Source: Bacteroidota bacterium (lineage in GTDB: Bacteria > Bacteroidota > Bacteroidia > Chitinophagales > Chitinophagaceae). Taken from it: a stretch of DNA of 64,000 nucleotides. Both the position numbers and the translations under genes were made by a program. How positions within the stretch are numbered: position 1 is the first letter of the stretch; each line of letters begins with the position of its first letter. The stretch spans positions 1 through 64,000 of the forward strand of contig VGGR01000008.1 in assembly GCA_016868585.1 (NCBI GenBank), in the 5' to 3' direction. The notes beneath the pieces are model-generated. The model saw only the letters and a program-made list of their open reading frames with translations. It was not told the DNA's origin and made no database searches. Shown here piece after piece: positions 9,456 to 59,031 of the stretch.

Positions 9456-9459
9456 GCGA

Positions 9460-9487
9460 TTTGTTTCGGGTGAACACTTTACTTTTA
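9460..9487 (+). promoter_or_regulatory. Possible promoter of anmK
   Basis: TTTG at 9460-9463 is followed after 16 bases by TACTTTTA at 9480-9487, one base off the -7 consensus TAnnTTTG. The anmK ATG follows 23 bases later. The spacing is a little shorter than usual, so this is tentative. Confidence 0.3.
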
Positions 9488-9510
9488 CCCGCCGAAATTA
9501 ATTTGTTTTT

Positions 9511-24310: not shown

Positions 24311-24334
24311 TAAAAAGCCCCCAATGCGGGGGCT
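24311..24334 (-). terminator. Intrinsic terminator of the Spy-like gene
   Basis: On the minus strand a 7-base-pair G/C stem (AGCCCCC/GGGGGCT, 5-base loop) is followed by TTTTTA. It lies 12 bases after the stop of the Spy-like gene and insulates it from the RluB-like gene. Confidence 0.85.
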
Positions 24335-24345
24335 GTTAAATTTTA

Positions 24346-24981
24346 TTACTCACTCCATTCGGCTGTAGTCTTGGAATGTGGTGGTGGAGGCGGTGGTGGC
24401 GACCCCTTTCTCTCACCCAAACCCCTTAGTCTGGTTTCTATTTTATTACGAAAGCCTTGCACACGGTCCCGCATCAGTTGTTTGTACTTCTCTATTTGAT
24501 CGGCATTTAATAATTGATTCAAATTATTTTTCTGCTCTTCCATTAAGTTGCGGAGCTGTTCTCTATGACTATCCCGAAAAGAATCTGCCTTCTTCTGCAA
24601 GGCTCTCATAGATTGTTGAAACTTCTCTTGTTGTGCTTGTAGCTTCACTACCTGCTCATCAGACAGGGACAAGGCCTCTTTTAATCGAGCAGCTTGTCTT
24701 TTTTTAGCACTGTCTTTTCTGGCCGTTTGTTTTTCTTTTAATTCCTTTAATTGTTTTTTTTGCTCTGGTGTTAAAACCTTTTCAAGTGCTTTCTCTTGCT
24801 CTTTTTTTAATTGCTCCCGTTGTGTTTTACTGAGATTTAATTGTTCACTGAGTTGTTGTTTTCTTTCTTCACGCATCCTTGATAATTGCTCGTGAGGAGC
24901 CGCTTTACGTTCTTGTACAGGTTGTGCGTTGGCCCCTGTGCCCCACACAAGCAATGTGAAAATAAAAATTGCATTTTTCAT
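24346..24981 (-). CDS. Secreted helical protein with Spy/CpxP-like repeats
   Basis: This is a 211-residue exported protein: a signal peptide ends at ANAQ (residue 19) and almost all the rest is predicted helical and rich in Lys, Glu and Gln. Four copies of a loose LTxxQ-type repeat can be seen (LNLSKTQREQLKK, LTPEQKKQLKEL, LSLSDEQVVKLQ, LNADQIEKYKQL). That pattern resembles the periplasmic Spy/CpxP chaperones and heavy-metal sensors. The C-terminus has a run of seven prolines. The function is not known. A terminator follows it directly. Confidence 0.7.
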   Translation of the reverse strand: MKNAIFIFTLLVWGTGANAQPVQERKAAPHEQLSRMREERKQQLSEQLNLSKTQREQLKKEQEKALEKVLTPEQKKQLKELKEKQTARKDSAKKRQAARLKEALSLSDEQVVKLQAQQEKFQQSMRALQKKADSFRDSHREQLRNLMEEQKNNLNQLLNADQIEKYKQLMRDRVQGFRNKIETRLRGLGERKGSPPPPPPPHSKTTAEWSE

Positions 24982-25059
24982 AAAATGGTTACTTTAAGAT
25001 CAGCAAAAACTAATACTAAGAAGTCTACGGAGCGTTAAGGTTTAATGCAGGGACCAAAA

Positions 25060-29526: not shown

Positions 29527-30444
29527 GTGAAGTATAAAATCACTACTTGTGTTTTCCTCTTGTTGGTCGTTGGCATTGGATGTACTACCTATGAGGAGCA
29601 ACGTGATCGATTGCCAGACACACCGAACAGAGGTCAGATCAGGATATCGGTAGATGAAACGTTTAAACCCCTCATGGACGAACTGGTACAGGTGTATCAA
29701 TCCAATCATCCGCAGGCAAAAATTGAAGTGGATTACAAGACCGAGGCAGATTGTTTACGGGATGCACTCAGCGACAGCGTTCGCCTACTTTTTATAACCC
29801 GTCGTTTATCTATTGAGGAAAAGGCGCTACTGGCGGACTCGCTCCGACTCAACGCGCGAAGTCTGGTAGTAGCCCGTGATGCTATTGCTGTTATTGTTCA
29901 TCCTAATTCCCCGGATACTATTTTTTCCATGGAGGAGATCAAGGCAATTCTCACAGGGAATTACAAGAAAAAGTTAATTCCTGTTTTTGATGGAATAAAG
30001 GCAACCAGCACGGTCCGATTTATTGTAGATTCAATCTTGAAAGGAAACTCTCCAACTCCTGATGCAATGGCTGCCAGAAATAGTGAGGGGGTAGTTGATT
30101 ATGTAGCTGCACATCAGGAGGTGATTGGATTTGTTGGGGTGGGGTGGGTAGGTAATCCGGAAGATTCCTTACAAATGAGTTTCCTAAAAAAAGTTAAAGT
30201 GGCGCACCTGGAAAGCGCGGATAAAAAAGGAGCCTATGTTAAGGCATACCAGGCCAATATTTATGCAAAACGCTACCCCATGGTTAGGGATTTGGTGTAC
30301 ATACTCAAAGAAAAACACCGGGGACTGGCCACGGGCTTTGCTCACTTTGTCAGTGGAGAATTGGGGCAACTTATTATTAGACGAGCCTATCTGGCACCTG
30401 CCCAAAAAAGGCTGGGAATACGCCCTGTTAAACTCAACGGGTAA
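29527..30444 (+). CDS. PstS-like substrate-binding lipoprotein
   Basis: This is a 305-residue lipoprotein. A GTG start is followed by a hydrophobic leader ending VVGIGC with the lipid Cys at residue 19, then a periplasmic binding protein fold of the PstS phosphate-binding type (SVDETFKPLMDELVQVYQ near 44). The start is set by the lipobox. An upstream in-frame Met at 29359 would run through the preceding gene in another frame. No pstCAB genes are adjacent. In this phylum similar proteins often accompany exbB-exbD-tonB and TPR genes, which fits the layout here. Phosphate binding is inference. Confidence 0.85.
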   Translation: MKYKITTCVFLLLVVGIGCTTYEEQRDRLPDTPNRGQIRISVDETFKPLMDELVQVYQSNHPQAKIEVDYKTEADCLRDALSDSVRLLFITRRLSIEEKALLADSLRLNARSLVVARDAIAVIVHPNSPDTIFSMEEIKAILTGNYKKKLIPVFDGIKATSTVRFIVDSILKGNSPTPDAMAARNSEGVVDYVAAHQEVIGFVGVGWVGNPEDSLQMSFLKKVKVAHLESADKKGAYVKAYQANIYAKRYPMVRDLVYILKEKHRGLATGFAHFVSGELGQLIIRRAYLAPAQKRLGIRPVKLNG

Positions 30445-30481
30445 TTCCACTATATTTACAACCTTTTTAATGTAAAAGGCT

Positions 30482-32269
30482 ATGACTAATCGGGTCCTTG
30501 TTTTGATTTTGTGTGTTGCACTGAATGATTTTATTGCGGGTGCCCAGACTATCCAGGAAGGTAAAGCGCATTTTTTTGCGCAGCGGTTTCAATTGGCCAA
30601 TACAGTTTTTCAGCAATTATTAAAGAACAATCCGGCAGATGCTGAAGCCTTATACTGGGGTGGTCAATCCGCCATCAGTCTTGAATTGGATTCAGCAAGC
30701 AAACCTGCTGTGGCCAGGGCTTGGTATGCAAAAGCATTGCAAACCGCGGCCGCTTCTCCAATTGTGCAAGTGGGGGCCGGGCAGGCTGATCTCTATGAAA
30801 ATAAGCTCAATGAGGCACGTCAAAAGTTTGAGTTTGCTTTAACACAAACACGGACCCGTAAGGGAGATAACGCTGACATTTTAATTGCCATTGCTCGTGC
30901 TAATATTGATGCACCGTTTCATGAGTTGGAGACTATCATAGCAAAAATCAACATGCAGCTGGAAAAGGGCGAAAAAAATGCGGAGTTGTATCTGATGCAA
31001 GGGGATGCCATACGAAAGGCCAGACCGGGTGAAGGAGGAGGAGAAGCTTTCAGAAATTATCAGGAAGCACTTAAGTTAAATCCAGGTTACGCATTGGCAA
31101 GCTACCGATTAGCTCGTTTATTCGATTCTCAGAAAAACTGGGAAATGGTATATCAATACTTGAATGAGTGCGTACAAAAAGATCCCAGCTTTACACCTGC
31201 TTATTACGAACTATTCTATTATTACTTCTATCGCCGGGATTTTTCCACAGCAGAAGAGCAGCTCAAAAAATTCATAGCCACCAAACAACGGCAGAAAAAT
31301 TTTCAGGACGAATTTCTTTATGCTCAATTGTGTTGGGCTCGTGGTGATTTTGATTGTGCCATCACAAAAGCGGAGTCAGTATTTGCGGCGCTTGAAGATA
31401 ATACCAAGCCACGCGTCTTTCGGTTGTTGTCCGATGCTTATTTCCAAGTAGGGGATACCTTACAAAAACAGGGTAATACTGATGGGGCTTCTACTTCATT
31501 TGCCAATGCAAAAAAGTACAGTGATCGTTTTTTTGGTAAAACTGGTGAGGAAAGTGATGCCGTAATCCTATATGATTATCAATTACGTGCTGATATTTTG
31601 GATAAAACCGGAGGAACGCCAGAGGAAATTTCGGCTACTTATTTGCGTGCAACCCGAGTGGATACACTGTACAACCTCAAGGTGGATCTCTTAAAGAGAG
31701 GGGCAGAGAGATTCAAGGCAAAAGGTGATAGCCTTAGCCGGATAATGGAAGGGATACTTCTTACAGAAGTGATAAAAATTAAGCCAACACCCATTAATCG
31801 CGATTACTTTGATGCTGGTTTTGCCTTCTATCAAGGAAAAGATTTCATGCATGCTGACAGTATTTTCTCAATTTATGTTACCCATTATCCCGACGAACCA
31901 TTTGGATACATGATGCAGTACAATATTCAACGGGCAGTGGATACAGCAATGGAGAAAGGAGCTGCTGTACCCTGGGCTATCAAATACCTGGAAATTCTGG
32001 AGCGGGATACCGTGAAAAACAAAAAGACCATAATCGGGGTGGCTGGCTACCTGGCAGCATACAATGCTAACATACTCAAGGATAAAGAAAAAGCCCTTCA
32101 ATATTTACGTCGAATGTTAGCATTAGACCCAACCAATGTGGCCATTCAACAGAATATTTCCGTGCTGGAAAAGGCATCAACCAACAAACAGGAGCCTACA
32201 AAAGATACGGTTCCTTCCAACCAACCGGCAAAGCCTGTCGGAAATATGCCCAAACCGCTGAAAACATAA
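30482..32269 (+). CDS. Secreted tetratricopeptide repeat protein
   Basis: This is a 595-residue exported protein. The signal peptide ends near AGAQ (residue 22) and is followed by many TPR-like helix pairs, such as FQLANTVFQQLLKNNPADAE near 37, YALASYRLARLFDSQKNWEM near 203 and a last clear one near 535 (KEKALQYLRRMLALDPTNV). The C-terminus is a low-complexity Pro/Lys tail. It is likely a periplasmic scaffold. Its partner is not identified, but the adjacent PstS-like gene and the downstream exbB/tonB cluster suggest an envelope energy-transduction module. Confidence 0.85.
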   Translation: MTNRVLVLILCVALNDFIAGAQTIQEGKAHFFAQRFQLANTVFQQLLKNNPADAEALYWGGQSAISLELDSASKPAVARAWYAKALQTAAASPIVQVGAGQADLYENKLNEARQKFEFALTQTRTRKGDNADILIAIARANIDAPFHELETIIAKINMQLEKGEKNAELYLMQGDAIRKARPGEGGGEAFRNYQEALKLNPGYALASYRLARLFDSQKNWEMVYQYLNECVQKDPSFTPAYYELFYYYFYRRDFSTAEEQLKKFIATKQRQKNFQDEFLYAQLCWARGDFDCAITKAESVFAALEDNTKPRVFRLLSDAYFQVGDTLQKQGNTDGASTSFANAKKYSDRFFGKTGEESDAVILYDYQLRADILDKTGGTPEEISATYLRATRVDTLYNLKVDLLKRGAERFKAKGDSLSRIMEGILLTEVIKIKPTPINRDYFDAGFAFYQGKDFMHADSIFSIYVTHYPDEPFGYMMQYNIQRAVDTAMEKGAAVPWAIKYLEILERDTVKNKKTIIGVAGYLAAYNANILKDKEKALQYLRRMLALDPTNVAIQQNISVLEKASTNKQEPTKDTVPSNQPAKPVGNMPKPLKT

Positions 32270-32290
32270 GATTTTCTCCTGCCCTCATCC

Positions 32291-32298
32291 TACCTTTG
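32291..32298 (+). promoter_or_regulatory. -7 promoter box of the nuo operon (TACCTTTG)
   Basis: TACCTTTG is an exact TAnnTTTG match ending 19 bases before the ATG of the nuoA-like stub. It appears to be the original promoter of the complex I operon, now close to nuoJ. Confidence 0.55.
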
Positions 32299-32317
32299 CG
32301 GCCAATAAGAAAGGGCT

Positions 32318-32437
32318 ATGTCTTATTTGCTTCAAGCTGGTGCAACTTCGTCGAGTGCAACCACTTATTTGCCCCTTGCCTTACAAGTGCTGATTGTGAT
32401 CGTCAACCATCTTCTCGAAACGCAAATCAACCTATAG
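32318..32437 (+). pseudogene. nuoA-like stub left at the start of the complex I operon
   Basis: A 39-codon reading frame begins MSYLLQAG, continues TTYLPLALQVLIVIV and stops at 32437, one base before the nuoJ ATG. The start resembles the N-terminus and first membrane helix of NuoA, normally about 120 residues or more. The last ten residues (NHLLETQINL) do not continue as NuoA and may come from another gene joined here, possibly the 3' end of nuoI. The most likely reading is a deletion that fused the start of nuoA to sequence just before nuoJ, removing nuoB to nuoI. A real small gene cannot be fully excluded. Confidence 0.6.
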
Positions 32438-32438
32438 C

Positions 32439-32939
32439 ATGAGTATATCCGCCATTTTGTTTTGGGTGCTGTCGATAGCCGCACTTTTTAGTGCACTCAT
32501 GGTGGTGACCAGCCGCAACCCCATCTACAGCGTAATCTGGCTAATTGTTACCTTTTTTACGATCTCTGGCCACTATATCCTTTTAAATGCCCAGTTTCTG
32601 GCGGTGGTTAATATCATTATTTATGCTGGGGCAATTATGGTGCTTTTATTATTTGTTATCATGTTGATGAATTTGAATAAGGAAAGTGAACCCGCGCGCC
32701 ATCGCTGGTTGCAATTGGCTGGTGCAGCAAGTGGGGGTGCATTCATGTTGGTGTTAGTGGCAGCACTCAAGGACACCGAGTTAAAATCACAGCAATCCTT
32801 ATTGTTGGAAGGACATATCGGCTTGATCAAAACGTTGGGACGGGAATTGTTTTCCACCTATGTAGTCCCATTTGAGTTGAGTAGCATTTTGTTTTTAAGT
32901 GCTATGATAGGGGCCGTATTAATTGGTAAAAAAGATTAA
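32439..32939 (+). CDS. nuoJ: NADH-quinone oxidoreductase subunit J
   Basis: NuoJ is a membrane-arm subunit of complex I that sits near the junction with the peripheral arm. The 166 residues have five hydrophobic helices. [17 protein letters not shown] near 24 and [20 protein letters not shown] near 58 are the conserved blocks, the latter containing the pi-bulge helix of transmembrane segment 3. It looks intact. It is preceded only by a nuoA-like stub and followed by nuoK 11 bases later. Confidence 0.95.
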
Positions 32940-32949
32940 TCAGGAAAAC

Positions 32950-33288
32950 ATGCCAATCAATTATTATTTATTCTTAGCAATCGCACTGTTCTCCATCGGA
33001 GTGGTTGGGGTGTTAACAAGAAGAAATGCCATCATCATATTCATGTGCATTGAATTAATGTTGAATGCGGTTAATCTGTTGCTGGTGGCGTTTTCAAAGA
33101 TGCACTACAATCAGGCTGCAGCCACTGCTATTCCTGTTGCCAATCCGGGTATTGATGGACAGCTTTTTGTTTTTTTTATTATGGTCGCAGCGGCTGCTGA
33201 GGTAAGTGTGGGTTTAGCCATTATTGTTATGTTGTATAGAAATATTCACTCGGTGGATATTAATTTTTTAAACCGATTGAAACATTGA
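32950..33288 (+). CDS. nuoK: NADH-quinone oxidoreductase subunit K
   Basis: This small membrane subunit of complex I has 112 residues and three transmembrane helices. The conserved glutamates lie in [17 protein letters not shown] near 35 and in the third helix [14 protein letters not shown] near 82, both implicated in proton transfer. The start at 32950 (MPINYYLFL) gives the usual length. An open frame runs nine codons further into nuoJ. Confidence 0.95.
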
Positions 33289-33305
33289 TCAAACTGTACG
33301 CTTTT

Positions 33306-35207
33306 ATGCACTCCTCTTTTCAACTTGCCTTTTTAATTCCCCTACTGCCTTTGATCGGATGCTTGATCAATGGGCTGGGGCGTAATTGGCTCTCTAAGCA
33401 ATGGTCAGGGCTGATTGGATCCGGCACTGTATTAGGCTCTTTTCTGATCAGTTTATTGGTGTTCCAAACCGTTGAAACCGGTCAGGATGCCGTGATCGCT
33501 TATTTTGATTTTATTCGTGTGGAGGGATTGCATATTCCATTTGCCTTTCAATTGGATGCATTATCCTCACTGTTCCTGCTTATTATTACCTCCATTGGAT
33601 TCCTGATTCATGTTTACTCTATCGCGTACATGCACCAGGAATCTTCCTCCTCATTTGCGCGTTATTTCTCTTATTTGAACTTGTTTGTGTTTTCCATGCT
33701 GTTGCTGGTATTAGGTGGCAATTATGTGGTGATGTTTATTGGTTGGGAGGGCGTAGGCCTTTGTTCGTATTTACTCATTGGATTTTGGTTTAAAAACCTG
33801 GAATCTACAAAGGCGGCCAATAAAGCCTTTATTATGAACCGTATTGGTGATCTGGCTTTTCTGCTGGCTATTTTTTGGCTGATTATTAAAACGGGGTCCG
33901 CTTCATTTTTGGAAGTTTTTGACTTTATACAGGCCAACGGGGGAACTGTCAAATTCTCCGCAACAGACATCACTGTGGTTACCCTATTATTATTTATTGG
34001 CGCAACCGGTAAGAGTGCTCAGCTTCCACTTTATACCTGGTTACCCGATGCTATGGCAGGACCAACGCCAGTTTCTGCATTGATCCACGCTGCAACCATG
34101 GTTACAGCGGGTATTTATATGATTGCACGCAGTAATGTTATTTATTCATTGGCTCCTTTTACGATGTCGCTGATTAGTTGGGTGGGATTGGCAACCGCTT
34201 TTCTGGCAGCTACCATCGCATTACAACAATTTGATATTAAGAAAGTGTTGGCCTATTCGATCGTGAGTCAGTTAGGTTTTATTTTTCTGGCACTGGGAAG
34301 TGGCGCCTATATCGCTGCCGTATTTCATGTATTCACGCAGGCATTCTTCAATGCCCTTCTTTTCTTGGGCAGTGGAAGTGTAATTCATGCTATGGGGGGC
34401 GAACAAGACATTCGCAAGATGGGTGGACTCTCAGGTAAATTAAAGATTACTTACTTCACGTTTATGATTGGTTGTTTAGCTATAGCCGGGCTCCCTCCTT
34501 TAAGCGGGTTCTTTTCCAAGGATGCTATTTTGCTAAGCGCCTTTCTACACCAGCCTCTGCAATATGGCCTTGCTTTATTTACCGCTTTTTTGACCGCTTT
34601 CTATATGTTTCGTTTGTTATTCCTGACCTTTCATGGTTCGTTCCGCGGTACAGCAGCGCAACAAGCTCACTTGCATGAGAGCCCTGCATTGATGACGGTG
34701 CCACTTATATTGTTGGCCTTGCTTTCTGTAGTGGGAGGATGGATTGGTATTCCATCCGTGCTGATCCATGACGCAGATCGGTTAGGCACTTTTCTTTCTC
34801 CTGTTGTTGGACCCATGTTGCACGAAGTTTCTCATGCCACCAAGTGGGTGTTGATGACTGTTTCTGCGGGAGGGGTGTTACTGACCCTAGGATTTGCCGG
34901 GTATCGTTTTAGTAATTATTCCGCGACCGAATCAAAAGGGATCTTTCGGTTTTTTGAACATAAATGGTATGTGGACCAATTATACGAGCATGTGGTGGGT
35001 AAACCAATTACGTACATGAGCCGGCTGTTAAATGAATGGGTTGAGCCAAGGCTTATTGACGCATTAGTCAATAGAGTGGGTAGATCAGTGCAGTTAGCCG
35101 GAAAACAAATTCGATTTTTACAAAGTGGAAAAATTGGGAGTTATGTGTTGTTAATGGTGCTTGCTATGGTAACTGTCCTTCTGGTTCAATTTTTTATCAG
35201 AAAGTAA
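33306..35207 (+). CDS. nuoL: NADH-quinone oxidoreductase subunit L
   Basis: This is the distal antiporter-like subunit of complex I, with the long lateral helix. The 633 residues have about 15 membrane segments. The Glu of the proton channel is in GWEGVGLCSYLLIGFW near 148, the Lys block in IGATGKSAQLPLYTWLPDAM near 232 and LIHAATMVTAGIYM near 258. ATG 33306 is chosen over an in-frame TTG at 33285, which would overlap the nuoK stop. Confidence 0.95.
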   Translation: MHSSFQLAFLIPLLPLIGCLINGLGRNWLSKQWSGLIGSGTVLGSFLISLLVFQTVETGQDAVIAYFDFIRVEGLHIPFAFQLDALSSLFLLIITSIGFLIHVYSIAYMHQESSSSFARYFSYLNLFVFSMLLLVLGGNYVVMFIGWEGVGLCSYLLIGFWFKNLESTKAANKAFIMNRIGDLAFLLAIFWLIIKTGSASFLEVFDFIQANGGTVKFSATDITVVTLLLFIGATGKSAQLPLYTWLPDAMAGPTPVSALIHAATMVTAGIYMIARSNVIYSLAPFTMSLISWVGLATAFLAATIALQQFDIKKVLAYSIVSQLGFIFLALGSGAYIAAVFHVFTQAFFNALLFLGSGSVIHAMGGEQDIRKMGGLSGKLKITYFTFMIGCLAIAGLPPLSGFFSKDAILLSAFLHQPLQYGLALFTAFLTAFYMFRLLFLTFHGSFRGTAAQQAHLHESPALMTVPLILLALLSVVGGWIGIPSVLIHDADRLGTFLSPVVGPMLHEVSHATKWVLMTVSAGGVLLTLGFAGYRFSNYSATESKGIFRFFEHKWYVDQLYEHVVGKPITYMSRLLNEWVEPRLIDALVNRVGRSVQLAGKQIRFLQSGKIGSYVLLMVLAMVTVLLVQFFIRK

Positions 35208-35227
35208 AAGCGTAAGACGCAAAAAAT

Positions 35228-36706
35228 ATGGTTGTTTTATTATTACTCTTGATTCCGTTGATTGGTGCCAGTTTTCTTTTTTTGTATAAGGGGGATCATC
35301 AATTTGCATCAACTGCCAGTCTTAAGCTTTCCCTTGTATCATTGCTGGTCATGTGTCTCCGGCTATTTTGTTGGCATACACCTGAACAGCTTTCCTTCAC
35401 GGCCCCCTGGCTTACCTCACTGGGTAGTTCATTTTCCTTGCGGATGGATGGCTTGGGCACTATACTCAGCCTACTAACTACTACTGCTTATTTTCTGCTT
35501 TTCTGGTATATGAGAAGCAGAACAATAGAGAGACCAGCTGCTTTTTTTGCCTGGTTGCTATTGGCGCAAGTAGGCATGTTGGGAGTTTTTTTAGCGATGG
35601 ACTCTTTGTTGTTTTATTTCTTTTGGGAGCTGGCATTGATCCCCATGTATTTTTTGGCCTCTCAGTGGGGTGGAGCCAGAAGCGTTTCGGTAACATTTAA
35701 ATTTTTCATTTATACATTCTTAGGGTCGGTGTTTATGTTGATCGGGATCTTATACTTACAATCAAAAACAGCCGATCATTCATTTGCATTGGAAAGCATT
35801 AAGAAAATCAAATTGACCAGTGATCAACAATCCTGGTTATTCTGGTTCTTTTTTATTGCATTTGCTATAAAGCTTCCTGTTTTTCCTTTTCATACTTGGC
35901 AGCCGGACACGTATGAGGAATCTGCCACACCTGTAACGGCTATTTTGAGTGCGATCATGGTAAAAATGGGAGTCCTGGGGTTGTTACGTTGGGTATTGCC
36001 ACTATTTCCTATCGCTTCGTATATGTGGGGTGATGTTGTAATGTCAATGGCTGTGGCAGGCATTGTATATGCCTCATTTTTAGCCATGCAACAAGTTGAC
36101 TTGAAACGGTTAATTGCTTACTCTTCTATTGCACACATTGGTCTAATGACGGCAGGGGCATTTGCGTTGAATCAGCTCGCATATCAAGGACTATTAATTC
36201 AATTGTTTACGCATGGTATCAATATCCTTGGCATGTGGATACTTGCCGATATTATTGAGCGCAAAACGGGAACACGTTCGATCGATTCCTTAGGAGGAAT
36301 TGCACAACATTCACCCACCTTGACCATTTTCTTTGTGATCATTGCTCTTGCCAACATAGCATTACCCCTTACCAATGCTTTTGTGGGTGAGTTTCTTCTT
36401 TTCGCTGGCGTATTAGCCACCCCTTCAACTTACTATTGGGCATTTGCTGTAGCGGTTGGGCTGGGCATTATTCTCTCGGCTGTTTATACGCTTCGAATGA
36501 TTCGGGCTGTTTTTTATGGCCAACCCAGCGCAAGAACCTCAATGGCCATTCGATTAGCGTTGCATGAGGTTGGGGCACTAGTTTTTATAGTAGGACTGAT
36601 ACTTTTCTTTGGTATCTGTCCGCAGCCTCTCATAGACATGACAGCAGATTTTTCCAAAGACCTATTTGGTCAAACCGATATAACCTCCTTATTCCGCAAA
36701 TCCTAA
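35228..36706 (+). CDS. nuoM: NADH-quinone oxidoreductase subunit M
   Basis: This is an antiporter-like membrane subunit of complex I, 492 residues and about 14 helices. Conserved blocks are FFWELALIPMYFLASQWGG near 137, FAIKLPVFPFHTWQPDTYEE near 217, and AYSSIAHIGLMTAGAFAL near 300, with Glu and Lys residues in the proton path. It lies 20 bases after nuoL and nine before nuoN. Confidence 0.95.
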   Translation: MVVLLLLLIPLIGASFLFLYKGDHQFASTASLKLSLVSLLVMCLRLFCWHTPEQLSFTAPWLTSLGSSFSLRMDGLGTILSLLTTTAYFLLFWYMRSRTIERPAAFFAWLLLAQVGMLGVFLAMDSLLFYFFWELALIPMYFLASQWGGARSVSVTFKFFIYTFLGSVFMLIGILYLQSKTADHSFALESIKKIKLTSDQQSWLFWFFFIAFAIKLPVFPFHTWQPDTYEESATPVTAILSAIMVKMGVLGLLRWVLPLFPIASYMWGDVVMSMAVAGIVYASFLAMQQVDLKRLIAYSSIAHIGLMTAGAFALNQLAYQGLLIQLFTHGINILGMWILADIIERKTGTRSIDSLGGIAQHSPTLTIFFVIIALANIALPLTNAFVGEFLLFAGVLATPSTYYWAFAVAVGLGIILSAVYTLRMIRAVFYGQPSARTSMAIRLALHEVGALVFIVGLILFFGICPQPLIDMTADFSKDLFGQTDITSLFRKS

Positions 36707-36715
36707 GCATCCTTT

Positions 36716-38086
36716 ATGAACGCCTTATTTGTATCTGCAATCCTGGGAGTTTTGTTAATGCTCAGCAGTCTTTTTATCAAGGATAGAAATTATATACATG
36801 CGTTGGCATTGGCAGGTTTAGCAGTATTATTTGCAATCAATTTGGCCGAATTCGATGGATGGTTGCTTTTTGAAATGGACCTATCGGGGATGCTTCGTTT
36901 TGATCGGTATGCATTAGTCATGAATGCCATTGGGCTGGCTTCATTTTTCTTTTACTTACTTCTCAGCGGGAGCGCTATGGAAAAAGTGGGGCCTCATCAT
37001 GCAGATTACCTTGCTTTACTGTTTTTTATCTGTGCAGGACTTTTTATGGTTACCGGTTTTGAGTCCTTACTGATCCTATTCCTGGGTATTGAAGTGGTTT
37101 CAATTCCCTTATATATTCTTACGGGTAGTGACAAACGAAATTTAAAAAGCAATGAAGCTGCCTTGAAATATTTTCTATTGGGATCATTCTCAACCGGTTT
37201 ATTATTACTTGGCATTGCCTTCTTTTATGGGGCAAGGGGCAACTTCATGGCCACCGTTTCAGTTGACCCCACGGTGGTTGGTTCTTCGCTACAGCTTGCT
37301 GCAGTTTTGCTCTTATTATTTGCGATGTCATTCAAAGTTTCAGTAGCCCCTTTTCACTTTTGGACGCCGGATGTTTATGACGGAGCACCAACAGTTTTTA
37401 CTTCTTTCATGGCCACCATTGTTAAAGTGGCATTGTTTGCAGCGTTTGTTCGTCTTTTTGAAGATACATTCAGCCTTCAATTCTCATTATGGCAACCCTG
37501 GGTGGCTGGTTTTGTGGTAGTAACCTTACTCATAGGAAACCTTACGGCCGTTTTTCAGCAAAGTGTAAAACGAATGCTTGCTTATTCAAGCATTGCACAG
37601 GCAGGATTTATGTTGTTGGCTGTTTATACGATCAATGGGGATAGTAAAGAGGGATTGTTATTATATGCTGCATCCTATTCGCTGGCAACCATTGGCATAT
37701 TTGCCGTACTTGTCTACTTGCAGGATCATACATTTGAAGGATTCAACGGACTTGCAAAAAAACAACCCATTGTGGCTGCTTCACTGGTCATTTTTTCCCT
37801 TTCCCTGGCGGGTATCCCGCTTACCGGAGGCTTCCTGGCCAAACTTTTTATGATCAAAGCTGCTTTAGCTTATCAGCCCTGGTTGGCTATTGTGTCGGTG
37901 GTCATGGCAGTTGTTTCAGTTTTCTATTATTTCCGGTTAATCCAAGCCATGTACTTTCGCAAAGACGCGCAATCCATTTCAATTGAATTTCCAAAGTCAT
38001 TTCCAATAGGATTACTGGTTACGGCATTGATTGTTGTATTGCTGGGCATTTTCCCTGAGGCCATCTTAGGGCTCCTTTATTTTTGA
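36716..38086 (+). CDS. nuoN: NADH-quinone oxidoreductase subunit N
   Basis: This is the proximal antiporter-like membrane subunit of complex I. Its 456 residues include LFLGIEVVSIPLYILTG near 120, KVSVAPFHFWTPDVYDGAP near 215 and LAYSSIAQAGFMLLAVYT near 290. It appears intact and ends the nuoJKLMN set. Because nuoB-I are missing from this locus, the protein can only work in complex I if those subunits are encoded elsewhere. Confidence 0.95.
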   Translation: MNALFVSAILGVLLMLSSLFIKDRNYIHALALAGLAVLFAINLAEFDGWLLFEMDLSGMLRFDRYALVMNAIGLASFFFYLLLSGSAMEKVGPHHADYLALLFFICAGLFMVTGFESLLILFLGIEVVSIPLYILTGSDKRNLKSNEAALKYFLLGSFSTGLLLLGIAFFYGARGNFMATVSVDPTVVGSSLQLAAVLLLLFAMSFKVSVAPFHFWTPDVYDGAPTVFTSFMATIVKVALFAAFVRLFEDTFSLQFSLWQPWVAGFVVVTLLIGNLTAVFQQSVKRMLAYSSIAQAGFMLLAVYTINGDSKEGLLLYAASYSLATIGIFAVLVYLQDHTFEGFNGLAKKQPIVAASLVIFSLSLAGIPLTGGFLAKLFMIKAALAYQPWLAIVSVVMAVVSVFYYFRLIQAMYFRKDAQSISIEFPKSFPIGLLVTALIVVLLGIFPEAILGLLYF

Positions 38087-38105
38087 TAGCGCCCACAAAC
38101 CGTTC

Positions 38106-38133
38106 ATCAAGCTTTTCTTGATATGGAGTTTTT
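38106..38133 (+). terminator. Weak candidate terminator after nuoN
   Basis: A 6-base-pair stem ATCAAG/CTTGAT with a 5-base loop is followed, after six bases, by five T residues. It is in the 68-base gap between nuoN and the ABC permease gene. The stem is short and A/T-rich, so the call is tentative. Confidence 0.3.
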
Positions 38134-38154
38134 CGGCAGTACCTTCAATTGCTC

Positions 38155-39441
38155 ATGATGCAATTTGCTGATATTTTTTCATTGGCTTTTAGAGCTATTC
38201 GCGGTAATAAACTTCGAACAGGCCTTACGGTATGCATCATTGCTTTTGGAATAATGGCCTTGATTGGAATTATCACCGCCATCGAAGCCATGAATCAAAA
38301 GCTGACGGAAAGCTTCTCTACTATGGGGGCCAATGGTTTTACTATCCGTTACAAACAACGAGATATTCGATTTGGAAACGTTGAGAACAACAACTCCGAG
38401 GTAAAGGTTACCCAAAAAGGACTACGTAAGGAACGCCGTTCCAATCTCGATAAAAAAATTACTATTAAACAAGCGGAATTGTTTGTGGACAGCTTTCAAT
38501 TTCCCGCCACCATCGGGATTGGAATTAGTGGAGGAAGAAATAGTATTATTTCTTATAAAACTCGGAAAACCAGCCCCAATATCTTTTTGCTTGGGGGAGA
38601 TGAAAATTACCTGACATTGAATGGTTTTGCAGTAGAGCTGGGACGAAATTTCAATCGATTGGATATTCAGTCGGCCCGAAATGTGTGCTTGTTGGGTTAC
38701 GATGTGGCCAATAAATTATTCAAGCAGGATCTTCAGGGTGCCGTCAATAAAATTGTTCGTATTAACTCCATACCTTATCGTGTACTTGGCGTGCTGGAGA
38801 GTAGGGGTTCTACATTTGGATTTAGTCGAGATAATGTTGTGTTGACCAGCTATACAAACATGGAGCGTAATTTTAATTCGGGGGGGTCTTACAATATAGC
38901 CATTCAAACAACAGCAATTGATCAAGTGCCTGCTGTAATGGGAGAAGCAGAAGGGTTGTTCCGGTCCATACGTAGATTGAGCACTACGGAGCAAAGTAAT
39001 TTTGTGTTGGATCGTGCGGATAGTATAGCAGAAAAAGCAATGAACAGTCTTGGATTTTTAACAATATCTGCAACAGTAATAGGGTTGATTACCTTAATTG
39101 GGGCAGCAATTGGCTTAATGAATATTATGCTGGTCTCCGTATCCGAACGTACCCGGGAAGTAGGATTGATAAAAGCAATTGGCGGAAAACGTAAATCAGT
39201 AAGTCAGCAATTTTTATTAGAAGCAATAATTATTAGCATACTAGGTGCTTTTTTTGGAATTATTCTGGGTATTGCCGTTGGCAACCTTTTTTCCTTTGTG
39301 CTTAAAACGGGATTTGTGCTTCCCTGGAACTGGGTTTTTTATGGGATAGCGATCTGCACCGGGGTGGGGTTAACCGCTGGTATCTATCCAGCCCGAAAGG
39401 CCGGAAAGTTAAACCCTATAGAAGCATTGCAATACGAGTAG
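38155..39441 (+). CDS. MacB/FtsX-type ABC transporter permease
   Basis: This is a 428-residue inner-membrane permease. An N-terminal helix (LTVCIIAFGIMALIGIITAI near 22) is followed by a periplasmic MacB-type core domain (about 45-285) and three C-terminal helices of the FtsX domain, including IGLITLIGAAIGLMNIMLVS and SERTREVGLIKAIGGKR, the coupling block. No ATPase gene is adjacent, so the partner must be encoded elsewhere. The substrate is unknown. ATG 38155 is used; ATG 38158 is equally possible. Confidence 0.88.
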   Translation: MMQFADIFSLAFRAIRGNKLRTGLTVCIIAFGIMALIGIITAIEAMNQKLTESFSTMGANGFTIRYKQRDIRFGNVENNNSEVKVTQKGLRKERRSNLDKKITIKQAELFVDSFQFPATIGIGISGGRNSIISYKTRKTSPNIFLLGGDENYLTLNGFAVELGRNFNRLDIQSARNVCLLGYDVANKLFKQDLQGAVNKIVRINSIPYRVLGVLESRGSTFGFSRDNVVLTSYTNMERNFNSGGSYNIAIQTTAIDQVPAVMGEAEGLFRSIRRLSTTEQSNFVLDRADSIAEKAMNSLGFLTISATVIGLITLIGAAIGLMNIMLVSVSERTREVGLIKAIGGKRKSVSQQFLLEAIIISILGAFFGIILGIAVGNLFSFVLKTGFVLPWNWVFYGIAICTGVGLTAGIYPARKAGKLNPIEALQYE

Positions 39442-39608
39442 TTTTCCCACATATTACCTGGTTTTTGTGACTTACGGATCAGGCAGTTATGAATTTCTGC
39501 TTCAAAGAATTATTACTTTTAAAAAATTCCTTACCTTGACCACCCTTCTGATGGGAAGGATGATAAAAATTTATTTAAACATTTATAACTCAACAAAAAA
39601 CAACGACA

Positions 39609-40469
39609 ATGGCAGAGACTAAACCAACTGCAACAGCTACTCCAAAGGCAACTTCCGTTCAGGCGAAACATGACAATAATATTATTTCATGGCTTGCACC
39701 ATTATTTTGTACACTAGCTGGCTATGCAATCTGGCGTTTTATGATGGGGAGCGAAAGTGGATTTGCTGAACCCGATAAAAGTGGAGGATTTTGGCCATCC
39801 CACACAGGGCCTAAAGATGCTTTTCATCGTATTTACGAAGGAGGTATCATTGTTCCACTATTGATTGGTATGTTTTTGATGGTGGTTGTTTTCTCTATTG
39901 AGCGTTATCTGACCATTCGTCGTACATTAGGAAATGGAGCTATAGCTGATTTTATCCGCAAAGTGCAATTTCATTTGGCAAGCCGTAATGTAGATGCTGC
40001 TATCGCTGAGTGCGATAAACAACGTGGTTCAGTAGGTAATGTAATGAAGGCTGGCCTTCGTCGTTACAAGGAAATGATTGCTGAAGGCAGCATGTCTACC
40101 GATCAAAAAGTGGTTGCTATTCAAAAGGAAGTGGAAGAAGCAACAGCATTGGAATTACCTATGATGCAAAAGAACCTGGTGTTCCTATCTACGATCACCT
40201 CTGTAGGTACCTTGATTGCCCTTTTGGGAACTGTATTGGGTATGATCCGTTCATTCGCTGCCTTAGGTGAAGAAGGGGGTGGAGGCGCTGCAGCTGATTT
40301 AGCTGTGGGTATCTCTGAGGCCCTTTATAATACCGCATTGGGTATTGGTACTTCTGCTATTGCATTGATTCTTTACAATGTATTTACTACTAAGATTGAC
40401 TCAATCACGCACGGTATAGATGAATCTGGTTTCACTTTGACACAAAGTTTTGCTTCTTTGTATAAATAA
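39609..40469 (+). CDS. exbB: ExbB/TolQ/MotA family proton channel protein
   Basis: This is a 286-residue inner-membrane protein forming the proton channel that energises TonB. A first helix lies near 27-45, a second near 85-105 (GGIIVPLLIGMFLMVVVFSI) and the conserved pair near 195-265 (STITSVGTLIALLGTVLGMI). The N-terminus carries a short extension rich in Thr and Ala. It heads an exbB-exbD-exbD-tonB cluster with gaps of 20 to 55 bases. Confidence 0.93.
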   Translation: MAETKPTATATPKATSVQAKHDNNIISWLAPLFCTLAGYAIWRFMMGSESGFAEPDKSGGFWPSHTGPKDAFHRIYEGGIIVPLLIGMFLMVVVFSIERYLTIRRTLGNGAIADFIRKVQFHLASRNVDAAIAECDKQRGSVGNVMKAGLRRYKEMIAEGSMSTDQKVVAIQKEVEEATALELPMMQKNLVFLSTITSVGTLIALLGTVLGMIRSFAALGEEGGGGAAADLAVGISEALYNTALGIGTSAIALILYNVFTTKIDSITHGIDESGFTLTQSFASLYK

Positions 40470-40524
40470 GCATCACTGCAATTACATGTGTGCAACTGTT
40501 TCTTCACGAAAAAACTAATTCATC

Positions 40525-41178
40525 ATGCCCAGTGCCAAGATACCCAGGAAAAGTACGGATACCGATATGACCCCATTTGTGGACATCGCGTTTCTGATCC
40601 TTTCCTTTTTCATCATGGCCACCAAATTCAAGCCACCTGATCCTATAGAGATTACTACACCCGGCTCGGTGCTTTCTCAGAAACTTCCTGAGAATAATGC
40701 TGTGATGATCACCATAGACTCTTCTAACAAAGTTTACTTTTCCGTAATGTCTTATCGCGATCCTTCTAAATACGACGCGATCATTCAAGGATTAAACTCC
40801 AGTCAAAACCTGAGGTTGAGCCCTGCTGAAATGGCTAATTTCAGAAAGACATTTGTGGTAGGGGTTGCCTTTGCTAACCTCAAAGAGCTACTGGCTACTG
40901 ATTTTCACGATCAGTCAAAAATCAAACAGCCGGGAATACCTGTTGCAGATACTTTGAACAACCAGCTTGTCTGGTGGATCAAGGAAGCGAAAATAGCTTT
41001 TGCCGGTGAAAAGCTGAATTATCTGATTAAAGGGGATGGACTTTCCAAGTATCCCACTTTTGCTGCAGTTGTGTATGCCTTGAAAAAGAATGAGGAGTTC
41101 AAGTACAATCTGGTTACTTCCCTTGACGATATTCCTCCCGGAACAGAATTGTACAAGAAGGAGCAAAACAAGCAATAA
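40525..41178 (+). CDS. exbD: ExbD/TolR family biopolymer transport protein (first copy)
   Basis: This is a 217-residue protein with one N-terminal membrane helix and a periplasmic domain. The helix begins DMTPFVDIAFLIL, with the conserved Asp needed for proton coupling near residue 18. The periplasmic part is longer than in Proteobacterial ExbD. Two different exbD genes in a row are usual in Bacteroidota and probably give a mixed ExbD dimer in the ExbB channel. Confidence 0.93.
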   Translation: MPSAKIPRKSTDTDMTPFVDIAFLILSFFIMATKFKPPDPIEITTPGSVLSQKLPENNAVMITIDSSNKVYFSVMSYRDPSKYDAIIQGLNSSQNLRLSPAEMANFRKTFVVGVAFANLKELLATDFHDQSKIKQPGIPVADTLNNQLVWWIKEAKIAFAGEKLNYLIKGDGLSKYPTFAAVVYALKKNEEFKYNLVTSLDDIPPGTELYKKEQNKQ

Positions 41179-41204
41179 ATTATAACCACTAACGACACTT
41201 AATT

Positions 41205-41831
41205 ATGGCAAGTATAGATACCGGTGCGGAACAGGGTGGCAAAAAAGGCCCGGGCGTCAAGAAGGCCAAAAAACTTTCTACCCGTGTGGATATGACCCCC
41301 ATGGTGGACCTTGGCTTTTTGTTGATCACCTTCTTCGTTTTCACCGCTACGATGAGCTCGCCCACTACCTTAGACCTGAACATGCCTAAGGATATTAAGA
41401 AGCAGGAAGACCAAACTGAAGTAAAAGAATCCTCTGTGTTGACTGTCATGCTTGGGAAGGCAAATCAGGTATATTATTACGAAGGAAAACTGGTGGTTGA
41501 TGCCGCAGGTAATAATTTCAAGCAAACCACGTTCAAAGGAATAAGAGACATCATTGTCAATAAAAAGAAAGAGGTGATTGATCGTTATTACCAGCGCCCT
41601 GATAAAGAATGCGAGGATAAAGCCACCGCAGCAGGGAAACCAGTAAGCAATTGCGCTGACAAGGATTTCGTGGTAATTATTAAACCTAGCAATGATGCCA
41701 CCTATCGAAATACAGTAGATATTTTGGATGAGATGACAATTAATCAGGTTCGAACTTACGCAATGGTAAAAATTGGGGATGTGGAATACGAATTAATTAA
41801 GAAAACCGAAGCATTCAGAGGCATCAAATAG
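41205..41831 (+). CDS. exbD: ExbD/TolR family biopolymer transport protein (second copy)
   Basis: This is a second ExbD-type protein of 208 residues, distinct in sequence from the first. A Lys-rich cytoplasmic start precedes DMTPMVDLGFLLITFFVF near 30-47, with the proton-coupling Asp at the head of the only membrane helix. A periplasmic domain of about 150 residues includes two Cys near 130 and 143. It is co-transcribed with its neighbours by spacing. Confidence 0.93.
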   Translation: MASIDTGAEQGGKKGPGVKKAKKLSTRVDMTPMVDLGFLLITFFVFTATMSSPTTLDLNMPKDIKKQEDQTEVKESSVLTVMLGKANQVYYYEGKLVVDAAGNNFKQTTFKGIRDIIVNKKKEVIDRYYQRPDKECEDKATAAGKPVSNCADKDFVVIIKPSNDATYRNTVDILDEMTINQVRTYAMVKIGDVEYELIKKTEAFRGIK

Positions 41832-41851
41832 TAAACGACAAAACAGCAAGC

Positions 41852-42673
41852 ATGGAAGTCAACAACATACTATCAGCAGATCTGCTGGAAATCATATTCG
41901 AAGGAAGAAATAAAGAATATGGAGCCTACTATCTGCGTAAAACTTACAATCAAAGAATCAAGCGCGCCTTGATTATTACTGCGTCAATTACCGGAATGAT
42001 TCTTTTGATCTCTTTCCTGAATCAAACGCTGAGCAATAAGAACGACTCCAAATTAAAGATCAATGAGATGACTTTACAGGATGTAAAGCAGGAGGAAAAT
42101 GAACCTCCGCCGCCACCTCCGCCACCTCCAAAGCAGGAGCCGCCCAAAGTGGAAATGAAGCAGTTTACCCCTCCTGTAATTAAAAAGGATGAGGAAGTTG
42201 AAAAACCCCCGCCACCACAGGAAGAATTGAAAGAAGCAAAAATCGATGTGGTTAACGTGGAGGGTATCAAAGACGAAGGTTTAGCTACTCCGGTTGATAT
42301 CGATCAGGGACGTCAGATAGTTGAAGAAAAAATTGACGATAACAAGATCTTCGATAAGGTGGAGATTGAAGCTAGTTTCCCTGGAGGCGACAGCAAATGG
42401 CGTATGTATCTCGAACGCAATGCCAATGGACAGGTTGCCACCGATAATAATGCTCCTGAAGGCTCCTATACCGTAGTAGTGCAGTTTGTGGTAGATAAGG
42501 ATGGAAATATCTCAGACGTTCGCACACTTACTAATCATGGTTATGGAATGGAGGAAGAAGCTTCGCGTGTAATACGTAAAGGACCAAGATGGAATCCTGC
42601 CATACAGAACGGGCGTCAGGTAAAAGCGTATCGTAAACAACCTATCACATTCCGCGTTGAGTCCGATTACTAA
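41852..42673 (+). CDS. tonB: Energy transducer TonB
   Basis: TonB spans the periplasm and passes proton-motive force to outer-membrane receptors such as the SusC protein later in this window. The 273 residues show an N-terminal helix near 32-52, a proline-rich linker (EPPPPPPPPPKQEPP near 85 and more near 120) and a C-terminal TonB domain with GSYTVVVQFVVDKDGNISDV near 205. It ends the cluster and is followed by a strong terminator. Confidence 0.95.
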   Translation: MEVNNILSADLLEIIFEGRNKEYGAYYLRKTYNQRIKRALIITASITGMILLISFLNQTLSNKNDSKLKINEMTLQDVKQEENEPPPPPPPPPKQEPPKVEMKQFTPPVIKKDEEVEKPPPPQEELKEAKIDVVNVEGIKDEGLATPVDIDQGRQIVEEKIDDNKIFDKVEIEASFPGGDSKWRMYLERNANGQVATDNNAPEGSYTVVVQFVVDKDGNISDVRTLTNHGYGMEEEASRVIRKGPRWNPAIQNGRQVKAYRKQPITFRVESDY

Positions 42674-44139: not shown

Positions 44140-44200
44140 TAGGTTGAAGTAAAGAGGTAGCAAACGTATAATAACATTACACAAATAATTGAAAATCAAT

Positions 44201-44492
44201 TCAATAAATCTTATTACTCTCTTGTAAATCGTCAGCATAAAGTGGACTTGTTTATTTCTTTATCATTTCCTGATTCTTTATGAACCAGATCAGTCAGCCC
44301 GATTTTATAATTATTAATCTGGTAACATTGCTCTGGAGTTAGCTTATCAGATGTAAATCCAGCTTCGAAAAGTATAGAATAAAACTTATTTCGTTTATGA
44401 GCGTAATAAAAACCTGATTGTGCGGATTTCTTGCCCTTTGCTGTGCCACAAAACACAACTTTTAGATTATATGTTAGTACATCTCTCAGCAA
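44201..44492 (-). pseudogene. Mismatch-specific uracil-DNA glycosylase (Mug-like), truncated
   Basis: An 86-residue reading frame from a TTG at 44492 reads LKVVFCGTAKGKKSAQSGFY, NKFYSILFEAGF and YKIGLTDLVHKESGND, the N-terminal half of a Mug/TDG-family DNA glycosylase. Intact relatives are roughly twice as long. The frame stops at 44232. A shifted frame continues with SPLYADDLQESNK and stops at 44201, after which nothing family-like is clear before mnmE. The start is also damaged, since an in-frame TAG lies just upstream where the native Met would be expected. It is most likely a decayed copy. Confidence 0.7.
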
Positions 44493-44904
44493 ATCCTTTA
44501 CAGGCTATTTAATGATACCCCAATTATTTAAATAATAGCTCATTTCATGTTCACGGTTTCCAAGGTATATTTTATCCTCTCTCACATCAATTTTTACACG
44601 ATACTTTTCATAGCTTTAGGGGGAAGATTACAAGTTATACATCTTTATTATTTTATGGAATAACGTGTAGTATTTGGCTCAATTAACCGATCTAAAGACA
44701 CAAAACATTTTCGTTCATATGCTTTATAGATTTTGCCTTTCCCTGGTATTTTCTGCATGTTGTTTCACCGTATACGCGCAACCGGCCCAAAAGGGACGTT
44801 TTGTAAAGAAATCTTAAAAAAAGTCGGTATTAATTTGGCCATTAGTTGATTAATTAGTCCATTTATTAAGGTTGCAGGCGCTTATTTAGGTTCATTTTAC
44901 TTGA
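44493..44904. other. A/T-rich intergenic stretch between the housekeeping block and the PUL
   Basis: These 412 bases hold no full gene. They contain an orphan signal-peptide reading frame at 44719-44817 and an A/T-rich stretch with repeated TTAATTAG-like words near 44850. No perfect -7 promoter box, tRNA or insertion-sequence end was recognised. The stretch marks the change from housekeeping genes to the accessory sugar-use locus. Confidence 0.6.
44719..44817 (+). pseudogene. Orphan signal-peptide fragment
   Basis: A 32-residue frame starts MLYRFCLSLVFSACCF and continues TVYAQPAQKGRFVKKS before a TAA. It is a textbook signal peptide with a VYAQ cleavage site but almost no mature protein. It looks like the 5' end of a lost secreted-protein gene rather than a functional peptide. 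Chance cannot be excluded. Confidence 0.4.
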
Positions 44905-47256: not shown

Positions 47257-47442
47257 ATGAGTAGTTGAAATGGAATATGTAAACAATAATAACTTTTTAA
47301 CTATGCGAAACAAACAATCATTTTCTCCCTGATACAAATAGCAAACCTTGGTTTTGAAATATAAATCCTGGTTATAAATATTTCATGCTAAAAAAATGTA
47401 TAGTAGTATAATTTTATAACAATCAATAAAACTGCCAAATGT

Positions 47443-50400: not shown

Positions 50401-50703
50401 GTAAATGGAAATGATAAAGTGGTCAATGATGTTCCATTCCTCACATTTGATGCTACTTCTGTAAGGATCAGTGAAATTGTATTAGGTTATACAGTTCCAA
50501 GTAAAGTGTTTGGAAAGAAAAGTTTTGTACGGGGAGCGTATGTGGCTTTAACAGGAAGAAATGTCTGGCAGATATTCCAAAAAACTCCTTATGGAATTGA
50601 TCCGGAATCAACTACCGGAACTTCAAATGGTACCATGGGGATTGAATCAGGCGGTTCATTTCCATATGCTATAATGGGTTTGAATATAAAACTGACTTTC
50701 TAA
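47443..50703 (+). CDS. SusC/RagA family TonB-linked outer-membrane protein
   Basis: This 1,086-residue TonB-dependent transporter imports oligosaccharides through the outer membrane together with its SusD lid. A signal peptide ends near SNAQ (residue 20), a carboxypeptidase-regulatory-like domain spans about 22-95 (GVLTDEKGIPVVGASVSV), and the plug about 106-230 contains GKVAGLQITGTGQPGG and QPLIVIDGVPIENSPG. The remaining part is a beta-barrel ending in the expected aromatic residue (KLTF). There is no STN domain, so direct control of an ECF sigma/anti-sigma pair is not suggested. SusD follows after 25 bases. Confidence 0.95.
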   Translation: MSKLFMLFFMVLTVTVSNAQSKTIKGVLTDEKGIPVVGASVSVKGKPNLGTVSNEQGAYQISITDPAKDILVFSHVEFATEEIPVNNQTVINLKFKDSQGQQMGDVVVVSALGVTRKQKSLTYASQNIDPKSITEARDVSFLNALQGKVAGLQITGTGQPGGSVRITLRGDNSLSSSNQPLIVIDGVPIENSPGEVGNIDYGNAAANINPDDIESITVLKGPNGAALYGAKAANGAILITMKKGKPGGNGSLGIEVNQNLQLYKVTAFPEYQNVYGEGSAFRLSGGNVNNINRANGGVNMGTSNQSWGAPMLGQPYNTYGGVPIAGGYLPQTNNVTGLYQTAFTNTSNVAVSKSDANGGFRMSYGFTKGNDVIDNLNLMNKHNISLSATRNLSKLIKIESRLNYTNWNTKNRMIKNLDPTNPLATYVYMGRSTRLDGFLPYRNAEGNSIATGQVNNTENPYWSIYANSNEDTRSAMNGAIVATINLSPALKVRGQVVADLATTENYIYREKGSRLTPLGYYSNSLTRQNNMFYEVMATYSKQLNKNISLDGLAGFSISDVNILGRAARIEALLVHNMPSIGNANAVPVATEFLTRSRQQSAFARAVVGYKEMVYLEVSGRKEWSSTLPIKNNTFFYPGIGANFNFGKFISNKNILSSGKLSVNYARVGNSTNPYQLVNTFSPQGLYMGNPYLSYTTSLRNPDLKPEQQISKEIGLEFSSLKGKVDVSLTYYKNSTINQIVSVQTPFETGFLNRIINAGEIQNKGVEMTVAATIIRNKKITWKSSLNYASNRSEVVSLLPNVTRIQLGNRLGMTVNAVVGQPYGVHMGFAPYRVGDTILVAATGRVIAEPNVITGNPRPKWIGGFTNSVSYKGFTLQVVATVKVGGVIFSESYGRGMFAGSTVKSLEGRDSYFFSSFILGETDNERRNIGQTIGPNRTRYLDSLRIKGMAYPNAYLARTGPGGVVLTDSKGRLLVGDKFLGWVYPQLVNGNDKVVNDVPFLTFDATSVRISEIVLGYTVPSKVFGKKSFVRGAYVALTGRNVWQIFQKTPYGIDPESTTGTSNGTMGIESGGSFPYAIMGLNIKLTF

Positions 50704-50728
50704 TACAAATATTTTAAAAAGATAAAAA

Positions 50729-52537: not shown

Positions 52538-52620
52538 ATAAATTGAACCACTCTAACGGCCTGCGGGGTAACATAGCCTGACCTAGCCAAAGTGGAGACA
52601 AAATCTAAAAAAAATTACGC

Positions 52621-53745: not shown

Positions 53746-53869
53746 TAGAAGAAAAGTGAAAATTATTGTTTCAGCTATTTGCTTATCTCAGGCACATTAA
53801 GAACTAGTATAATTTTTAATGTGCCCAAATAAGCTCTGGTTTATTACTGATTCTTTGGCCTGACTTTCT

Positions 53870-53907
53870 AAACCCGGATTTTGCAGTTCGCTGCAAAATT
53901 TGGGTTT
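53870..53907 (+). repeat. 17-base-pair inverted repeat with TTCG loop inside the PUL
   Basis: Left arm 53870-53886 (AAACCCGGATTTTGCAG) and right arm 53891-53907 pair along all 17 positions as RNA, with two G-U pairs, and close on a TTCG tetraloop. It lies in the 293-base gap between two PUL genes, which otherwise holds nothing recognisable. It may act as a terminator, a stabilising 3' end or a processing site. No T-run follows. Confidence 0.8.
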
Positions 53908-54038
53908 ATCCAGTAAACAATCAGTTTTTATGGATAAATATTCAACATCATTTTTATTATTTATTTTTTTAGACTCAACCGGCAATTGCCGCAAAAACTG
54001 CAAAAAAAGAACACATAGTAAACTCAAAATATTTAATT

Positions 54039-55364: not shown

Positions 55365-55389
55365 AATAATAAGATAAACATGATTAATC

Positions 55390-59025: not shown

Positions 59026-59031
59026 AAAGTG

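Follow-up and report, generated by a model that had tools for sequence, protein, structure and literature searches.

The nuoA–N operon of this Bacteroidota genome was probably hit by a single non-homologous deletion of ~7.35 kb after the split from its sister genome G010, leaving nuoJ–N behind as a decaying remnant. Ordinary gene loss with an eroding remnant is the most likely explanation. The window, i.e., the whole 64-kb stretch of DNA that was analysed, comprises positions 1–64000 of contig C8 of the MAG G000, an assembly of 1,767,145 bp in 20 contigs with a completeness of 99.39% and a contamination of 0.04%. The window does not contain a single N. The features of the locus are as follows:

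32291–32298, + strand: promoter-like motif TACCTTTG of the TAnnTTTG type (−7), with TAACTTTG at the equivalent place in G010, G025, and G022; putative position of the former nuoA–N promoter
32318–32395, + strand: nuoA codons 1–26, from alignment with nuoA of G025 (L047), G022 (L046), and G010 (L151); the sister NuoA has 131 residues
32396–32398, + strand: deletion junction; positions 2772–10121 of G010 L151 (7,350 bp) are missing, and base 32397 matches neither side
32398–32442, + strand: nuoI end, comprising the last 14 codons and a stop codon that shares bases with the nuoJ ATG; its frame differs from that of the nuoA stub
32318–32437, + strand: fused stub frame of 39 codons (nuoA 1–26 and the out-of-frame nuoI end)
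32439–32939, + strand: nuoJ, intact, 166 aa (PF00499, E 8.3e-43)
32950–33288, + strand: nuoK, intact, 112 aa (PF00420; NF004320 above cut-off)
33306–35207, + strand: nuoL, open, 633 aa (TIGR01974 above cut-off); six residues that all 98 other sequences keep are substituted
35228–36706, + strand: nuoM, intact, 492 aa (TIGR01972 above cut-off)
36716–38086, + strand: nuoN, intact, 456 aa (TIGR01770 above cut-off)

The stop codon of the stub and the nuoJ ATG at 32439 are separated by one base. All five frames from nuoJ to nuoN are open, and the only broken genes are nuoA and nuoI. The original prediction of a 39-codon frame, followed one base later by nuoJ and then by intact nuoK, L, M, and N, agrees with the coordinates and the family matches. 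It had also described the stub as starting like NuoA. Alignment with NuoA N-termini and with the nuoI end revealed that this holds for residues 1–26, while residues 27–39 are encoded by the nuoI 3' end in a frame other than its own. The stub itself matches no Pfam or NCBIfam family. The motif TACCTTTG is located 19 bases upstream of the stub start codon and resembles a TAnnTTTG-type (−7) promoter element. As for the −7 promoter that had been proposed here, the motif and its counterpart in the three relatives are present, but the count of TANNTTTG is uninformative: the pattern occurs 39 times in the window, compared with 71.7 times on average in shuffled sequences, and by itself it constitutes no evidence. 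Positions 32291–32298 are best described as promoter-like and as the putative promoter of the former nuoA–N operon. The frames adjoining the nuo locus encode a TPR protein as well as MacB-like, ExbB/TolQ-like, and MnmE proteins; the exbD labels used below were assigned by eye.

The anatomy of the gap was derived from comparison with related genomes. Two relatives, L046 (record BJGL01000001.1) and L047 (VGMN01000001.1), were found with the window NuoL as query and are colinear with the window around the junction, apart from ~7.35 kb. In a tree of concatenated NuoJ–N proteins from 24 taxa, G010 is the sister of the window with a support of 1.000 and its closest relative (~90% identical); the grouping of the outgroups G025 and G022 has a support of 0.191 only. 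G010 aligns with window positions 29629–32396 (87% identity) and 32398–42270 (90% identity). Between both blocks, 7,350 bp of G010 are absent from the window, and the flanks are colinear. The missing segment, and thus what the deletion would have taken from an ordinary nuoA–N operon encoding a 14-subunit complex I, holds nuoA from codon 27, all of nuoB–H, and nuoI except its last 14 codons. G010 possesses a complete nuoA–N, and a full NuoA is carried by both G025 and G010. Directly left of the junction, the window and G010 are identical over 74 bp. In G010, G025, and G022, no in-register direct repeat of at least 7 bases was found up to 60 bp from the breakpoints, which rules out recombination between direct repeats, and the junction is read as a non-homologous deletion.

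A junction query of 1,001 bp was run on 42 genomes of the genus and matched in 37 of them, with a match across the junction in G000 only. Fifteen other genomes match both sides of the junction, always apart or on different contigs; the remaining matching genomes match on the nuoJ side, so that for these the query bears on that side alone. No match was obtained in G008, G011, G014, G023, and G030 (five of the 41 others). An ancestral short frame shared within the genus is ruled out by the full NuoA of G025 and G010, together with the lack of any junction-crossing match among the other genus genomes (only 15 of 41 match both sides, and five match on neither). A lineage-specific deletion is supported, because nuoA–N is complete in G010, the flanks are colinear, and none of the other genus genomes searched has a match across the junction. 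The large deletion, which was among the explanations offered in the original prediction, is thereby reduced to a precise gap that was seen in none of the other genus genomes searched. A conserved separate short frame with nuoB–I at another locus, named there as speaking against a recent deletion, was looked for and found neither in the assembly nor in the genus genomes searched.

The predicted lack of nuoB–I was borne out by searches of the rest of the assembly. The 7,348-bp nuoA–I DNA of G010 has no match in G000 (nine of 11 first-look candidates scored). The same query matches 19 of 19 congeners and 22 of 33 genomes overall, with G000 counted among the 33. Profile searches for NuoD (PF00346), NuoF (PF01512), and NuoH (PF00146) gave zero matches in G000. 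NuoH is present in all 34 congeners, as is NuoD (G020 being included only via matches of a second, divergent type), and NuoF in 33 of 34, with none in G007. The NuoJ profile yields one match in G000, namely the window locus. The absence of NuoB, C, E, G, and I rests on the nuoA–I DNA query, and that of NuoD, F, and H also on the profiles. The idea that the missing genes had moved elsewhere is not supported, as the sister DNA query and the three profiles found no trace of them in the assembly. Compared with a functional 14-subunit complex I, the genome retains the subunits L, M, and N along with J and K; the NADH-oxidising module (NuoE, F, and G) and the quinone module (NuoB, C, D, and I) together with NuoH are absent.

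The promoter position, the nuoA start, and the closeness to nuoJ have been kept, and transcription and translation of nuoJ–N should thus still be possible. A remnant that lacks NuoA, NuoH, and the whole peripheral arm has neither an NADH site nor a quinone site, and no redox reaction to drive it. Its J–N proteins therefore cannot carry out the proton pumping of complex I. A haem-copper oxidase is still present, but NADH would have to be re-oxidised by another route. In Escherichia coli, NuoL is missing from membranes that lack NuoA and nearly absent from those lacking NuoG or NuoH, according to an excerpt of PMC13073174. A stable J–N remnant is disfavoured, since NuoA, G, and H are all missing here. 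Against a reading as decay stand the open nuoJ–N frames, the nearly full conservation of NuoM, N, and K, and the E. coli strain without NuoB, in which NuoL stays in the membrane (same excerpt of PMC13073174).

Conservation and selection were analysed in alignments of nuoJ–N comprising the window and 89 to 98 other sequences per gene, drawn from 99 candidate loci; matches covering less than 80% of the protein were dropped, e.g., G006 (L, M, and N) and L048 (J and K). J–N have 439 sites with a conservation of 98% or more outside the close subclade. Nine of these are changed in the window but unchanged in G010, and the reverse case does not occur. Six of the nine changes are located in NuoL, two in NuoJ, and one in NuoM, with NuoM, N, and K keeping nearly all conserved residues. 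The control gene macB shows two such changes in the window only and none in G010 only, and exbB none in the window only and two in G010 only. The NuoL substitutions, numbered from the ATG at 33306, are G96S, T319I, M326I, H345Q, K349N, and E513K, each at a residue that all 98 other sequences retain. In three solved NuoL chains, the positions of H345 and K349 are occupied by His and Lys, and the two residues presumably correspond to H338 and K342 of E. coli. An excerpt of PMC13324432 places the E. coli NuoL residues K342, H334, H338, and K399 along the hydrophilic axis and assigns the first three to the proton path. The conserved His/Lys chain of this path is interrupted in the window by H345Q and K349N, while both residues are present in 98 of 98 others.

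Substitutions were polarised with G025 and G022 as outgroups, and the starts of nuoK and nuoL were taken at longer upstream start codons for these counts. For nuoJ–N, the nonsynonymous to synonymous (N:S) counts amount to 49:102 on the branch leading to the window, compared with 40:181 on that leading to G010 (Fisher p 0.0019), an approximately twofold ratio. As controls, 20 other genes were picked mechanically from the 9.5–44.1 kb part of the window, as frames of at least 90 codons with matches in all three relatives; their counts are 120:367 versus 193:605 (p 0.89). The interaction of gene set (J–N versus controls) and branch has an odds ratio of 2.12 (p 0.007), i.e., selection on J–N is relaxed beyond that on the other genes when compared with the sister branch. 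Within the window branch, J–N versus controls gives p 0.07, and within the G010 branch p 0.06 in the opposite direction. Of the nonsynonymous changes, NuoL contributes 26 of 49 on the window side and 20 of 40 on the G010 side. Some individual controls have elevated values on the window branch as well, namely exbB (N:S 7:10), the first exbD (7:6), and the second exbD (9:9). The latter, an exbD-like gene at 41205–41828 (label by eye), has 0:19 on the sister branch. On these counts, nuoJ–N looks like a remnant of recent origin on which selection has relaxed and in which NuoL changes most rapidly. It is probably not a working pump, since the J–N N:S ratio is doubled relative to the sister and the NuoL His and Lys are lost. 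The working J-K-L-M-N remnant envisaged in the original prediction is disfavoured by the same two observations, the frames still being open though.

The designation as recent is inferred from the lack of stop codons in nuoJ–N. With a neutral N/S of 2.52 and the ratio of the sister as background, the unconstrained share of the window branch is estimated at ~11% (95% interval 4–20%). If J–N had been neutral for 11% of the branch, 3.6 nonsense changes are expected and the probability of none is 0.03; at 5%, 1.6 are expected and the probability is 0.20. If indels are assumed at 10% of substitutions, the chance that all frames are open is 0.0045 at 5%, 0.12 at 2%, and 0.34 at 1%. Because all five frames are open despite this expectation of nonsense changes and indels, either the deletion would be very recent, or the relaxation partial, or part of the relaxation would predate the deletion.

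No replacement for complex I was detected in G000. A profile search for the NQR/RNF subunit (PF03116) found none, and neither did one for NDH-2 (PF22366), an insensitive profile whose control matched in four of 14 genomes and not in E. coli. Because of this weakness, a second NDH-2 query was made with a protein from the same order. It has no match in G000 and matches 18 of 33 genomes (19 congeners covered), including six congeners at E values of 1.5e-136 to 3.3e-129. Mqo is over the cut-off in none of the 33 genomes, G000 included, and is uninformative for the clade. The small-genome congeners (up to 2.1 Mb; G002, G005, G006, G010, G012, G013, G015, G016, G022, G023, G025, G029, G033, and G034) contain no PF03116 or PF22366 in 14 of 14, several of these assemblies being incomplete, and the NDH-2 protein query matches none of the eight that it covered. 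As judged from these searches, complex I seems to be the sole respiratory NADH dehydrogenase of the small-genome congeners.

COX1 has two matches in G000, on the contigs C3 and C19. C19 is, over all of its 10,869 bp, 91.4% identical to part of C3, and 99.7% identical to G010 over 10,076 bp. The whole contig (L166) duplicates the COX1-containing stretch of C3 (L167, G000:C3:76000-95000). C19 is probably a stray sister-species contig that was binned into the MAG. If so, C3 carries the one haem-copper oxidase locus detected in the genome proper. Three COX1-family matches were obtained in G010; two of these, at G010:C7:10854-12146 and G010:C23:14734-15969, are located in frames of other lengths (715 and 461 aa). 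Neither of these two types was seen in G000, and other respiratory genes may have been lost from G000, too.

The purity of the MAG bears on the interpretation of the gap. Confidence in a deletion is held at the level of a probable reading mainly because the MAG carries a sister-species contig and is not perfectly pure. The population may have an intact nuoA–N, with the assembler or curation having joined nuoA to the nuoI end and the missing piece left unbinned; a sister species may have tangled the graph. Given the 99.7% identity of C19 to G010, a relative with an intact nuo operon was probably in the sample, and the 74 bp of identity left of the junction would suit a false join. It would be physiologically unusual for a cell to lose its only detected NADH:quinone oxidoreductase, and the failure to detect a replacement NADH dehydrogenase raises the prior for an assembly error. 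The open J–N frames would then need no explaining. However, the window contains no N, and there is no shared repeat at the breakpoints to cause such a join. The assembly is nearly complete in only 20 contigs, and no fragment of nuoA–I was found in it. Relaxed selection on J–N and the loss of invariant NuoL residues, which is evidence independent of the assembly, would not be expected if complex I works. Skipped kilobases in the assembly, as considered in the original prediction, are thus unlikely, though the chance of such an error is appreciable.

It is far less probable that J-K-L-M-N forms a working orphan module, e.g., a Mrp-like cation/proton antiporter or a proton leak, that was kept after loss of the redox arm. 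Five open frames with an N/S of 0.48, well below the neutral 2.52, would suit such a module, as would the conservation of NuoM, N, and K and the kept promoter position and start. Moreover, Mrp A subunits match NuoL (6z16_A and 7qru_A). However, NuoL, the very subunit matching MrpA, has lost H345 and K349, the N:S ratio is doubled relative to the sister, and the junction query on 42 genomes revealed no such module in a second genome of the genus. An N/S below neutral is expected anyway, as most of the branch may predate the deletion. Similarly hard to credit is an aerobe that has lost every recognised respiratory NADH dehydrogenase (complex I, NDH-2, or NQR/RNF), in which some unrecognised pathway oxidises NADH and J-K-L-M-N persists as an ion-translocating unit without redox function and with an altered NuoL. 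Finally, a small element could be absent from a 20-contig assembly, yet a location of the missing genes on another replicon or at a locus outside the assembly is extremely improbable, because the excised piece would lack nuoA codons 1–26 and the nuoI end and could not represent a functional cut-and-paste event, no trace of it is present in the assembly, and selection on J–N is relaxed.

A deletion remnant of complex I can be compared with several known systems. With the NDH-1/complex I nuoA–N operon of G010, G022, and G025, the window has in common the promoter position, the gene order, the nuoA start, and nuoJ–N; unlike NDH-1, it lacks nuoA from codon 27 through most of nuoI and thereby the NADH-oxidising, quinone-binding, and NuoH parts. 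Mrp-type Na+/H+ antiporters likewise have homologous antiporter-like subunits and no redox arm, whereas L, M, and N of the window are three separate complex I-type subunits by NCBIfam, and its NuoL lacks two conserved proton-path residues. A complex I-like enzyme of 11 subunits keeps A–D and H–N. According to an excerpt of PMC11238625, this enzyme is without the NADH-oxidising module, which is also missing from the window remnant; in contrast to it, the remnant additionally lacks A–D, H, and I. In reducing genomes of Sodalis endosymbionts, complex I was lost in a small-genome lineage as well, with loss of some subunits disabling the whole, and Ndh is stated to be invariably kept wherever Nuo is inactivated (excerpt of PMC11137140). 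Unlike in that account, no NDH-2 was detected in G000, and one clean deletion leaves five frames open. A limited literature search found no orphan nuoJ–N of this origin. Shrinking genomes are already known to lose complex I, and the setting without a detected replacement is unusual.

If reads confirm the deletion, the re-oxidation of NADH in such a cell becomes a concrete, testable question. The operon would then show complex I shortly after it was lost, with the distal NuoL changing most rapidly and K, M, and N still of intact appearance. Failing such confirmation, the locus serves as a warning on single-locus gaps in highly complete MAGs.

Further observations concern the remainder of the window. 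Positions 24318–25056 hold ~740 bp that are absent at that place in G010 and seem, by eye, to encode on the minus strand a small protein with many Gln, Glu, and Lys residues. Right after mnmE, at ~44140, the window ceases to be colinear with the compared parts of G010, G025, and G022. By eye, the large frames from 44140 to 64000 resemble a glycoside-hydrolase locus with SusC/SusD genes, which may be directed at mannose-rich glycans.
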